DNA of 30,752 nucleotides. Source: a virus. Shown here one piece after another: positions 1-22,121 of this stretch (position 1 is its first letter; each line of letters starts with the position of its first letter). The notes under the pieces were generated by a model, which was given only the letters and a program-made list of their open reading frames with translations, was not told where the DNA came from and did not search any database. The position numbers were made by a program, and so were the translations under genes. Location of the stretch: positions 1 through 30,752 of IMG/VR virus record IMGVR_UViG_3300043313_000581; one strand, given 5' to 3'.

Positions 1-432
1 CGCGAGCGCAACGCCAAACGGGCCGCGACATTCCGCGAGCGTCACGCCGGTAGTAACGCCGGTAGTAACGCCGGTAGTAACGGCGTGAGTCCGGACGCCC
101 CGTACCCGGTCCCGGTCCCGGTTAATAACCCGGTCCCGGCCGCTACCACTACCCCCCAACCCCCTCCGCCAGCGGAGGGGGCGATTGCCCCGCCGACGGC
201 GGACGACGTGAAGCTCTGGGCGACGGCTCGCGAGCAGGTCGCCGACGGCATGCACCCGGCCAACCGCGAGCGCATCGAGGCGCTGGAGCTGCTCGGTCGC
301 GAAGCCGACGGCAGGCTCCGGCTCAGAGCGCCGCCGTGGGTCGACGCATCCAGGTTCGTCGGGACCGTGCGCGCTGCGCTGGTCAACGCTGGCGACGCGG
401 CCGGCGCCAAGGCTGTGATTGTGACGGGGTGA
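1..432 (+). CDS. Replication initiator-like protein, C-terminal part (5' truncated by window)
   Basis: The reading frame is open from the first base, so the gene begins upstream of the window; 143 residues are visible. It starts with a basic stretch (RERNAKRAATFRERHA), then three AGSN repeats, then a Pro-rich linker at about residues 34-63. The last ~75 residues (from DDVKLWATAREQV to RAALVNAG) resemble the DnaA N-terminal domain-like module found at the C-terminus of many phage replisome-organiser proteins: a W followed by helices, then a short strand pair ending in APPWVDASRF. The inferred role is origin binding and helicase loading. The linker-coding DNA contains iteron-like repeats and a strong dyad, as expected for an origin inside an initiator gene. 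A GTG at 85 is an internal codon, not a convincing start. The N-terminal DNA-binding domain is not visible, so the assignment rests on the C-terminus and context. Confidence 0.6.
   Translation, partial: RERNAKRAATFRERHAGSNAGSNAGSNGVSPDAPYPVPVPVNNPVPAATTTPQPPPPAEGAIAPPTADDVKLWATAREQVADGMHPANRERIEALELLGREADGRLRLRAPPWVDASRFVGTVRAALVNAGDAAGAKAVIVTG
46..81 (+). repeat. Three tandem 12-bp iteron-like repeats
   Basis: Three perfect head-to-tail copies of GCCGGTAGTAAC lie at 46-57, 58-69 and 70-81. They encode (A-G-S-N)x3 in the putative replication initiator. Perfect conservation at third positions as well as at the protein level suggests either recent duplication or a cis function as initiator-binding iterons. 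Confidence 0.8.
120..130. other. AT-rich palindrome GGTTAATAACC in the candidate origin
   Basis: An 11-bp near-palindrome (arms GGTTA/TAACC around a central A) forms a small AT-rich island in very GC-rich DNA. It lies 38 bp after the iteron-like repeats and is flanked by repeated CCCGGT units (from about 105 and again from 130). It is a possible melting or binding site; the function is inferred from position only. Confidence 0.4.
160..181. other. Perfect 10-bp inverted repeat (hairpin)
   Basis: CCCCCTCCGC at 160-169 is exactly complementary to GCGGAGGGGG at 172-181 with a 2-base centre. The hairpin lies within the Pro-rich linker of the initiator gene, so it is not a terminator in the usual place and has no T-run. 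With the iterons and the AT-rich island it makes up a candidate origin. Confidence 0.6.
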
Positions 433-18803: not shown

Positions 18804-21800
18804 ATGCCGTCCGCGTCGGCCGTCGCCGAGCTTCAGGTCGTCGTCGGGGCAGACGTAAGCGCCGCCGAGCGCGAGCTCGCATCGCTCGGGACGAAGGTCG
18901 GCTCGGTCGGCTCGACGATCGCGACCGCGTTCGGCGGCGCCGCCATCGCTGGCATTGCCGGCCTGGCCGCTGGGCTCGGCGCCTCCGTGGCTGCGGCGTC
19001 CGACTTCGAGAAGTCCATGTCGGGCATCAAGGCCGTCTCGGGCGCGACGGCAGCGCAGATGGAGGACATGTCGAAGCTGGCGCTCCAGCTGGGAGCGGAC
19101 ACGTCGTTCTCCGCAAAGGAGGCCGCCGACGGGATCGGCGAGCTGGTCAAGGCCGGCGTCTCGATGTCCGACATCATGGGCGGCGCCGGCAAGGCGTCGC
19201 TCGACCTGGCGGCGGCCGGCGGGATCGCCGTGGCTGACGCCGCGACGTTAGCAGCTCAGGCCATGAATATCTTCGCCATCAAGGGCGCCGACATGGGCAA
19301 GGTGGCCGACACGATCGCGGGCGCGGCCAACGCCTCGGCCATCGACGTCAACCAGTTCAAGTTTTCCCTGTCGGCGGCTGGCACGGTCGCGGCGACGGTC
19401 GGGTTCTCGTTCGACGACCTGGCGCAGGCGATCGCCGTCATGGGCCAGAACGGGCTCGTCGGGTCGGACGCTGGGACGTCGCTCAAGACGATGATGACGG
19501 CGTTGCAGCCGTCGACGAAGGCGGCGACCGAGAAGTTCAAAGAGCTGGGCCTGATCACCAAGTCGGGCGCGAATGCGTTCTTCGACGCGACCGGCAAGGT
19601 CAAGTCCATGTCGGAGGTCGCCGGCATCCTCCAGAAGTCGCTCGCCGGGCAGACCGAGCAGCAGCGATTGGCGACGCTCCAGACGTTGTTTGGATCCGAT
19701 GCCATCAGAGCGGCGGCGATCCTGGCGAAGACCGGCGCCGAAGGCTTCAACGACATGGCCGACGCGATGGGCAAGGTCTCGGCGGCCGACGTCGCGTCGA
19801 CCAGGCTCGACAACCTCTCGGGCTCGCTCGAAAAGCTCGAAGGCTCGCTCTCGACGGTCGCGATCACGGTCGGGCTGGCCCTGACGCCGCTCCTGAAGGA
19901 CCTCGTCGACTACGGGACGGAGATTGTCAACGCCTGGGGGCCGACGATCGCGCTCTGGGCCAATCAGCTCCCGGGCGCCATCCAGGCGACAATCGCGGTC
20001 CTCAAGGCGCAGTTACAGCCGCTCGTCGAGTGGTTCACGACGACTGGCCTGCCGGCGCTACGCGGCGCGCTCGGGACGATCGGCACCGCGGTCGCCACGC
20101 TGACGACGACCGCCTGGCCGCTGCTCCAGGCCGCCATGCAGGCCGTGGCCGACTGGTGGGCGACCGTCTGGCTCCCGACCGTCGCGACGGTCGTCTCGTG
20201 GCTGGTCGACCACGTCGGCGCCGCGCTGACCTGGCTGACGACGACCGGCTGGCCGCTCCTGCAAGCCGCGATGGTGGTCGTCGGGGCCTGGATCACGACG
20301 ACGCTGGTCCCGACGCTGACGGCGGCCTGGTCGTGGCTCACGGAGAAGCTCGGCGCTGCGCTGACGTGGCTCTCTGAGACCGGCTGGCCGAAGCTCGGCG
20401 AGGCCGCGAACGCCGTCCAGAACTGGATCAAGGGCACCCTGATCCCGACCCTGACCGATTGGTACACCTGGCTCGACCAGAAGCTCCAGCCGATCTATAC
20501 GTGGTTCACCGAGCAGGGCTGGCCGCTGCTGCAAGCGGCCGGTGCGACCGTCTGGACGTGGCTGACCGGGACGCTGTTCCCGGCGTTATCCGAGTGGTAC
20601 GACTGGCTCCAGGCGCGGCTGTCGCCGATCTTCCAGTGGTTCGTGACCGACGGCTGGCCGAAACTCCAGGCGGCCGGCGCCGTCGTCGTGACCTGGGTCA
20701 CGGGGCCGCTCGCGGCGGCGCTCAAGGAGTGGTACGAGTGGCTCCAGGATCGGCTCTCGCCGGTCTTCCAATGGTTCACGACCGAAGGCTGGCCGGCGTT
20801 CCAGACGGCCGGCGGCTTCGTCTGGAACTGGCTCGTCACCAACCTGATCCCTGCGCTTCAGGACTGGTATCACTGGCTGGGCGAGGAGGCGAAAAGCGCC
20901 GCCGACTGGTGGATAGCGCAGGGCTTCCCGAAGCTGGAGATCGGCTTCAAGGAGCTCAACCCGCAGGTCGCGCAGGGGGCGAAGGACTGGAATGCCTTCG
21001 CCGACGCGCTCTCGCGGACCGACGCTGGCGAGAACTGGGTCGCGATCCTCGCGAACCTGAGCGCGTTCGGGAAGTACCTGATCGAGAACATCAACCTCGG
21101 CGACTGGTTCAACGACATCACGAACGGCGCCGCCGCAGCAAGCGGCTGGGCCGACTACATCGCCGAAGCGGTCGCCTGGATAACGCGAACGATCAAGAAG
21201 TGGTCGGACGCGCTCCCCGGCCAGCGCAACCTGCCGGACGTCGAGGAGCCGCCGAAGCCGCCGTCTGGCAATTCGGGCGGCGGCGGGGGTGGCGGGAGCG
21301 GCGCGGTCCCGGCGCCCCCCAACTTCGTGGCGCCCCCGGATCCGAGCCCGACGCCGTCTCCCGCGCCATCCCCGAGCCCGACGCCATCCCCGAGCCCGTC
21401 CCCGAGTCCGAGCCCGAGCCCGTCGCCCGGCGGCGACATGCCGACGACGACCGCCGGCTGGATCGCGCTGACGCGCCAGTTGGGCGGCGAGTACGGGCTC
21501 GGCGACTGGTTCGTGAACCAGATCAGGCAAGAGTCCGGGTTCAACCCGAACGCCCAGTCTCCGGCGGGAGCGCGCGGCATCGGCCAGTTCATGCCCGGGA
21601 CCGGCGCTGCGATGGCCGCGCAGCTCGGGGTGTCAACGGCCGCGTTCTGGGCGGACCCACGGCTCCAGCTTCGGGGAGCCGCGCTCCATATGCACGACCT
21701 GGTCGGACGATACCAGGGCGACGTCCTCGCCGGACTGGTCGGCTACAACGCGGGCACCGGCAACGCCGACTATCTGCGGCCGTTCCTGCACGACATCCCG

Positions 21801-22121
21801 GCCGAGATCTGGCAGCTTGAGAACACCTGGAAGGACAAGCAGCCGCGCGAGTACGTCCGCGCGATCCTGGGCTATCAAGAGGGCGGCTGGGCCGGGCTGC
21901 ACGGCCCTGAGCTGGCCTGGCTCGGCGAGCGAGGCCCCGAATATGTCGTCCCGAACGCGGCGCTGCGCGGGGGATCTGCGGGGGCCATGCAGTCGGTCTC
22001 GATGCCGATCGTGATCGGCGACCGCGTGATCGAGGAGCTGTGGATCACCGGCCGCGACCTGGCGATCAGGCGTGGCCGCGTGCCGGGCGCCGGCGCAAGC
22101 TCGATGGGGTCGCTCGCATGA
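18804..22121 (+). CDS. Tail tape measure protein with lytic transglycosylase domain
   Basis: 1105 residues. N-terminal ~360 residues match the TP901 tape-measure core: VVVGADVSAAERELASLG, SDFEKSMSGIKAVSGATAAQMEDMSKLALQLG, FSAKEAADGIGELVKAG, then ALTPLLKDLVDYG. Residues ~415-715 are seven Trp-rich units of 45 residues. A Gly-rich run (~827-835) and a Pro-Ser-Pro linker (~845-875) lead to a transglycosylase/lysozyme-fold domain: NQIRQESGFNPNAQ with candidate catalytic Glu 910, then GARGIGQFMPGTG and LVGYNAGTGNADYLRPF. The C-terminal ~90 residues (ERGPEYVVPNAAL) resemble tape-measure tails. It measures tail length and probably opens cell wall at infection. Start ATG 18804 has a weak Shine-Dalgarno; it ends in ATGA overlap. 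Confidence 0.95.
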   Translation: MPSASAVAELQVVVGADVSAAERELASLGTKVGSVGSTIATAFGGAAIAGIAGLAAGLGASVAAASDFEKSMSGIKAVSGATAAQMEDMSKLALQLGADTSFSAKEAADGIGELVKAGVSMSDIMGGAGKASLDLAAAGGIAVADAATLAAQAMNIFAIKGADMGKVADTIAGAANASAIDVNQFKFSLSAAGTVAATVGFSFDDLAQAIAVMGQNGLVGSDAGTSLKTMMTALQPSTKAATEKFKELGLITKSGANAFFDATGKVKSMSEVAGILQKSLAGQTEQQRLATLQTLFGSDAIRAAAILAKTGAEGFNDMADAMGKVSAADVASTRLDNLSGSLEKLEGSLSTVAITVGLALTPLLKDLVDYGTEIVNAWGPTIALWANQLPGAIQATIAVLKAQLQPLVEWFTTTGLPALRGALGTIGTAVATLTTTAWPLLQAAMQAVADWWATVWLPTVATVVSWLVDHVGAALTWLTTTGWPLLQAAMVVVGAWITTTLVPTLTAAWSWLTEKLGAALTWLSETGWPKLGEAANAVQNWIKGTLIPTLTDWYTWLDQKLQPIYTWFTEQGWPLLQAAGATVWTWLTGTLFPALSEWYDWLQARLSPIFQWFVTDGWPKLQAAGAVVVTWVTGPLAAALKEWYEWLQDRLSPVFQWFTTEGWPAFQTAGGFVWNWLVTNLIPALQDWYHWLGEEAKSAADWWIAQGFPKLEIGFKELNPQVAQGAKDWNAFADALSRTDAGENWVAILANLSAFGKYLIENINLGDWFNDITNGAAAASGWADYIAEAVAWITRTIKKWSDALPGQRNLPDVEEPPKPPSGNSGGGGGGGSGAVPAPPNFVAPPDPSPTPSPAPSPSPTPSPSPSPSPSPSPSPGGDMPTTTAGWIALTRQLGGEYGLGDWFVNQIRQESGFNPNAQSPAGARGIGQFMPGTGAAMAAQLGVSTAAFWADPRLQLRGAALHMHDLVGRYQGDVLAGLVGYNAGTGNADYLRPFLHDIPAEIWQLENTWKDKQPREYVRAILGYQEGGWAGLHGPELAWLGERGPEYVVPNAALRGGSAGAMQSVSMPIVIGDRVIEELWITGRDLAIRRGRVPGAGASSMGSLA
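20112..20924 (+). repeat. 135-bp (45-codon) repeats in the tape measure gene
   Basis: The GWP-type anchor (A/G-W/F-P, as in GWPLLQAA, GWPKLGEA, GFPKLEIG) recurs at 20112, 20247, 20382, 20517, 20652, 20787 and 20922, exactly 135 bases apart each time. Each unit also carries W..TLxPxL..W..WL. An earlier LP anchor at 20046 is 66 bases before the first, about half a unit. Confidence 0.9.

Follow-up and report, generated by a model that had tools for sequence, protein, structure and literature searches.

A putative phage replication origin in the linker of its own initiator gene, and a layout that recurs in divergent homologues

Can a replication origin be recognized, from its letters, inside the gene for the protein that would act on it? 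The question is raised by the first few hundred bases of a linear virus record, 30,752 bases long (hereafter the window), a fragment that starts inside a gene. An earlier note on this DNA had proposed a candidate origin within an initiator gene there, at 46-181. The features discussed below are as follows, with the evidence for each in brackets.

1-432, plus strand: 5′-truncated replication initiator gene, comprising the end of the head domain, a linker, and the C-terminal part (open frame, homology to L002, L003, and L004)
42-88, plus strand: four 11-bp dyad iterons with a 12-bp period, proposed initiator binding sites (sequence, shuffles, GTNAC density, foreign matrix)
42-52, plus strand: iteron unit TCACGCCGGTA (sequence)
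54-64 and 66-76, plus strand: iteron units TAACGCCGGTA (sequence)
78-88, plus strand: iteron unit TAACGGCGTGA (sequence)
99-119, plus strand: C3N3 tract CCCGTACCCGGTCCCGGTCCC, the hexamer form of the family's C3N2 tract (sequence, family comparison)
120-130, plus strand: GGTTAATAACC, a short AT-rich spot that adjoins the tract on its 3′ side and is a candidate opening site (sequence, AT peak in 66 initiator genes)
129-137, plus strand: two further CCC runs, CCCGGTCCC (sequence)
160-181, no strand assigned: perfect 10-bp hairpin CCCCCTCCGC-CA-GCGGAGGGGG, recombination joint of a head-plus-iteron module with a C-terminal module (sequence, identity switch)

A truncated initiator gene and the repeats in its linker

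The translation of frame 1-432 begins RERNAKRAATFRERHAGSNAGSNAGSNGVSPDAPYPVPVPVNNPVP, and a search of viral contigs with this frame returned three relatives, L002, L003, and L004. L002 and L003, in which the head is present, match phrog_9474 and phrog_2447, "replication initiation protein" (E 9e-36 and 3e-35). All full-length relatives match PHROG replication initiation proteins (phrog_2447, 3926, and 9474), and phrog_2447 is matched by all 38–39 sequences among the relatives picked for alignment. The matched part is absent from the window fragment, which explains why the fragment itself matched no PHROG profile and why a protein search with it against named phages came back empty. From the homology of its full-length relatives, we infer that the window gene is a replication initiator. 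The family extends to 431 named phage records at E 0.01, with Mycobacterium and Gordonia predominating.

In a structure model of L003, with 38 relatives in the alignment, residues 1-110 form a confidently modeled N-terminal domain, followed by a low-confidence, disordered linker (approximately 125-175) and then by C-terminal helices. The head matches winged-helix structures including 4pql, 5kbj, 4pt7, and 4pta (Z 6.8–7.4) amid many other winged helices; some of these matches, at middling Z, are entries whose titles name an initiator, either bound to DNA or free. A PDB sequence search with the initiator gave nothing meaningful, Foldseek with its model gave nothing at E 0.001 or better, and the RepA_N Pfam domain is absent from L002, L003, and the 38 relatives. 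The protein is best described as a probable RepA-like, phrog_2447-type initiator, for which homology to lambda O is not established. Elsewhere in the window, a frame at 1453-2709 matches phrog_2045 (function unknown, E 1.4e-50) and carries a CDHGCNYC cysteine motif, and a long frame at 18804-22121 looks by eye like a tape measure, with an end resembling a lytic transglycosylase (QESGFNPNAQSPAGARGIGQFMP).

The linker DNA is repetitive. The three perfect 12-bp direct repeats described in the earlier note are there without a mismatch (GCCGGTAGTAAC at 46-57, 58-69, and 70-81). Shifted to the register of the relatives (TNACGNCGNNA), however, they become four units rather than three (42-52, 54-64, 66-76, and 78-88), that is, four dyad iterons of type TNACGNCGTNA spanning 42-88; the range 46-181 thus contained the features described but cut the first 4 bp from the first unit. 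Tested against 5,000 synonymous-codon shuffles that leave the peptide unchanged, the 12-mer repeats reach P = 0.0002; the codons that spell them are rare in this genome (GGT is 8% of Gly, AGT 4% of Ser). Region 42-88 is also the densest GTNAC cluster of the window. With a matrix built from 31 GTNAC-type sites of other phages only, the four iterons rank 1, 4, 5, and 6 of 30,742 window positions scanned, in a test that is not fully blind since the consensus used to collect the training sites was chosen after both the window and its relatives had been seen.

Downstream of the iterons, the C-rich tract at 99-119 presents four G3 runs on the complementary strand. Four C3 runs with 2–3-nt spacers are the textbook quadruplex pattern on the opposite strand, so the opposite strand of the tract could form a quadruplex. 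Copies of ACCCGGTCCCGG at 104-115 and 128-139 flank the palindrome GGTTA-A-TAACC (120-130). The earlier note had read this as an AT-rich palindrome between CCCGGT repeats, and the arrangement is present, but its arms are only 5 bp, not significant by themselves, and the AT-rich stretch spans only about 9 bp (GTTAATAAC, 121-129) in GC-rich surroundings. GC skew reaches its minimum within the first 2 kb; the minimum is tiny and the record is a fragment, so it counts as weak support.

Exact 12-mer tandems can also come from recent slippage, and the window and its closest relative, L004, differ by exactly one 12-bp unit, L004 having one fewer. A neutral account is to be weighed, in which slippage expands short repeats wherever the protein tolerates any sequence and the DNA has no function. 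The disorder of the linker in the L003 model and the copy-number difference both agree with it; the comparison across phages, given below, does not.

The hairpin and a mosaic joint

The perfect 10-bp hairpin of the earlier note was found at 160-181, where it is the longest perfect hairpin of the 30.7-kb window (shuffle P = 0.002, peptide kept). Its palindrome also lies in the linkers of L002, L004, L005, L008, L009, and L012. However, CCCCCTCCGC-NN-GCGGAGGGGG turned out to be a palindrome dispersed at high copy number in Ramlibacter monticola, other Comamonadaceae, and the Verrucomicrobiota MAG JARKQH01. For this reason we dropped the hairpin as a conserved diagnostic element and treat it as weaker evidence, the least specific of the elements. 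Flanks of the dispersed palindrome differ between the Comamonadaceae and the Verrucomicrobiota MAG groups (L021-L122, e.g., L038, L046, and L023).

The hairpin, taken by itself, may then be a dispersed bacterial palindromic element captured in frame and no part of an origin, a reading to which we give slightly less than an even chance. Besides its many copies in Ramlibacter, Comamonadaceae, and one Verrucomicrobiota MAG, the MAG has a similar CACCCCCAA leader. Capture fits less well with the location of the exact palindrome in an initiator linker in 6/8 viral contigs that carry it, with its single copy in the window (which is a fragment), and with the retention in L003 of a hairpin with a different stem.

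Sequence identity switches at the hairpin. Between the window and L004, 146/146 aligned bases are identical up to the hairpin, apart from the one 12-bp unit, and identity then falls to near background; between the window and L002, identity is poor 5′ of the hairpin and reaches 88% (218/248) 3′ of it. The head end, iterons, and tract thus form a unit that travels together, with the C-terminal part swapped at or close to the hairpin, which marks a recombination joint in the window gene. The window itself starts inside the initiator linker region, L004 (position 1) starts about 42 bp further upstream, and the end of L008 (14853) is some 150 bp away from the hairpin. These repeats seem to be points at which assemblies break, perhaps through copy-number variants.

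Recurrence of the layout across initiator genes

We compared the best self-repeat of each gene with synonymous-codon shuffles in 25 initiator genes and 88 neighboring genes. Values of P ≤ 0.01 were obtained for 17/25 initiator genes, with every repeat in the linker or at its edge, and for 1/88 neighbors; as positive control, lambda O reached P = 0.008 with a best repeat that corresponds to annotated iterons 1 and 2. Most repeats of the initiator genes are pentamers (C3N2): CCCGA in Ali17, GMA1, DoctorFroggo, and Footloose, CCCGT in Warren, CCCAA in Cerasum, and CCCAT/CCCTT in Apricot, Wocket, and MrSmee. MosMoris (CCCAAA) and the window (CCCGTA/CCCGGT) have hexamers instead. Since 5 and 3 have no common factor, a pentamer repeat belongs to the DNA rather than to the codons. 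Across 15 named genomes and the window (749 kb), 12 period-5 repeats with a score of at least 12 lie in initiator genes, which make up 1.7% of the DNA scanned, and 2 lie elsewhere. L002, L005, and L009 are exceptions with different repeats, (CCGGA)n replacing the CCC runs, and SF3 has none.

The tract is preceded on its 5′ side by lineage-specific dyad repeats. These are of the GTNAC type in the window, Ali17, MosMoris, Cerasum, and others, and elsewhere of the types TTCGGGCGAAC, TGTCC-GGACA, GTCCC-GGGAC, and TTGCAGCGCAA. In MosMoris, Ali17, DoctorFroggo, Harrison, and the window, the GTNAC cluster with the highest density in the genome is found within the initiator gene or immediately before it; it is tied in Cerasum and a few others and lies elsewhere in several genomes. 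Among relatives the linker peptide has changed wholly, with equivalent DNA elements in the same place. This bears out the expectation, named in the earlier note as a check of its proposal, that the repeat DNA and not only the residues would be conserved; the reverse case, a peptide kept with its repeats lost, was not seen, and L004 keeps both.

MosMoris has a second GTNAC cluster, immediately upstream of its initiator gene (L235 approximately 1416-1480; record 41448-41512), which raises the possibility that the initiator also binds the region of its own promoter. This is where an operator would sit, and it invites the reading that the repeats are autoregulatory binding sites of the initiator, or a centromere, rather than an origin. 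We consider an operator or partition site improbable: the conserved cluster sits in the middle of the gene, well away from its start, and leads into a tract and an AT peak, the arrangement seen in origins.

The rise in AT is a local one. Averaged over 66 initiator genes, AT excess is highest 0–20 nt 3′ of the tract (+0.24 and +0.14 in the first two 10-nt bins), and the AT-richest 40-nt stretch of the gene falls at the tract in only 11/66, above the expected 5%. A hairpin with a stem of at least 8 follows the tract in 27/67 genes, with differing stem sequences and the loops TAAC, TGAC, TAC, or TTC. A second class has a G-run with GTNAC after the tract in place of the hairpin. In initiators with a CPKH-type, zinc-ribbon-like tail (L356, L294, L411, L345, Ali17, and Cerasum), the tract leads into TTGGTTAC or TGGTCAAG, after which comes a run of five to seven G, often plus GTNAC, with no hairpin.

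A repeat with a hairpin after it looks like a frameshift signal, and the C-rich tract and hairpin could in principle act in the mRNA, as such a signal, as a transcription terminator or Rho site, or as a ribosome pause. The hairpins themselves, in about 27/67 genes, speak for this, but the other two frames close after the tract at medians of 13 and 3 codons (vs. 19.5 and 47), indicating that there is no overlapping product, and we ruled out programmed frameshifting since no alternative frame is open past the tract. Action in the mRNA would also leave the iterons 5′ of the tract unexplained and would not account for the class without a hairpin; of the alternatives for the whole segment, we regard it as the least probable.

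The pentamer DNA also finds initiators on its own. A reverse scan of viral contigs with it gave at least 119 distinct sites, and 60/119 of those listed fall in a frame that matches the model of the initiator head, compared with 4/67 for a control in which the letters of the pentamer were rearranged (P = 9e-11, Fisher's exact test). Among the matches listed, the C-rich strand is the coding strand at 55/60 initiator tract sites, and the tract lies at residues 114-221. The other 59/119 sites listed have no match to the initiator model. A few of these are in other replication genes and others in HNH endonuclease genes; about seven of the ORFs match the HNH families phrog_15463 and phrog_26098 (some of L358, L363, L353, L364, L368, L379, and L400), and several of the sites outside initiators share CCCGACCCG followed by GCAGATCCAGA or similar. 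The GTNAC pattern was weakly specific as a search tool when used alone, with only 6/116 sites in initiators; CCC/GGG runs lie beside GTNAC in at least three of those six (L526, L465, and L469).

These comparisons bear directly on neutral slippage. Pentamers that are out of codon register, nearly unique per genome, and always in the same gene are not what slippage in a permissive linker predicts. Nor are C residues mostly on the coding strand (55/60 among the matches listed), an AT peak that comes after the tract, a dyad iteron common to distant phages, and the rarity of such repeats in neighboring genes (1/88). We therefore hold a neutral low-complexity linker to be unlikely. In the window, four dyads spaced by 12 bp come first, then a C3N3 tract, then a short AT-rich spot, and this order recurs in the initiator genes of dozens of other phages, divergent homologues with differing linker peptides. 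With the ranking of the iterons by a foreign matrix and the evidence of the relatives, this lends support to the candidate origin of the earlier note: segment 42-181 (approximate bounds) is very probably the phage replication origin, or its core, within the linker of its own initiator gene.

Comparison with known intragenic origins and a possible mechanism

An origin within an initiator gene is an arrangement already known from lambda O, SPP1 gene 38, and pSK41 rep. As in the window, the lambda origin places iterons inside the initiator gene; on their 3′ side lambda has an AT-rich region (PMC7466680), for which the window offers a candidate spot of about 9 bp, and iteron number varies between relatives among lambda and Stx phages, lengthening the O protein (PMC7466680). 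Both lambda O and the window gene are flagged by the comparison of repeats with shuffles, and the AT peak just 3′ of the tract in family initiators matches the location of the lambda unwinding region. The two differ in that lambda has 18-bp iterons 20–24 bp apart and a long AT-rich tract, whereas the window has 12-bp dyads and a short AT spot, and in that the C3N2-3 tract of the window family is absent from lambda. SPP1 oriL in gene 38, likened here by description, has direct repeats and a DUE as well, both within the gene whose product binds the origin (PMC6316719), although SPP1 has a second origin as well.

In pSK41 rep (RepA_N), a winged-helix head of about 120 residues binds four boxes central in rep, the DNA of the origin codes for a linker that is dispensable, and the C-terminal part resembles DnaD (PMC5703833). 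The four boxes in rep parallel the four iterons in the window linker, where the mosaic joint lies 3′ of the iterons. In pPR9, a phage-like head and origin replaced those of pSK41 as one unit (PMC5703833), the same logic as in the mosaic of the window, L004, and L002. In contrast to pSK41, relatives of the window have no RepA_N Pfam match and show a GC-rich phage origin with a C3N2 tract. For the RepA phages Miko, Rachaly, and Jeeves, an origin upstream of or within repA has been proposed, as in lambda, and the authors found no repeated motifs (PMC7157519). We found no description of the iteron, C3N2 tract, and AT layout in this clade in the literature, in which subscription journals were sparsely covered.

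By analogy with lambda, SPP1, and pSK41, the winged-helix head would bind the dyad iterons, the initiator complex would open the DNA at the AT-rich spot just past the tract, and the C-terminal part would recruit the helicase or its loader. The linker protein is free to vary, and origin DNA can therefore sit there; head and iterons would move as one by recombination. The C3N2-3 tract might serve as a second contact site, as an opening element specific to one strand, or as a G-quadruplex/i-motif. More tentatively, and with somewhat less confidence than an even chance would warrant, we propose that a large, mostly actinophage clade of winged-helix initiators shares an undescribed linker origin, in which lineage-specific dyad iterons are followed by the C3N2-3 tract as a distinct functional origin element (a strand-specific opening site like DnaA-trios, or a G-quadruplex) and then by an AT-rich or hairpin segment.

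Almost no actinobacteriophage has, to our knowledge, a mapped origin; if the proposal is true, sequence alone could reveal the origins of many phages. Should the layout hold, the origin and the initiator gene would be marked together by one short DNA signature, many families called only "replication initiation protein" would gain testable binding sites, and the odd PDPTR, PTQPN, PSHPI, and PVPVPV linkers would be DNA repeats read as protein. Such a layout would also offer compact origins for vectors. The tract raises the further question of what reads CCCNN between the iterons and the opening site.
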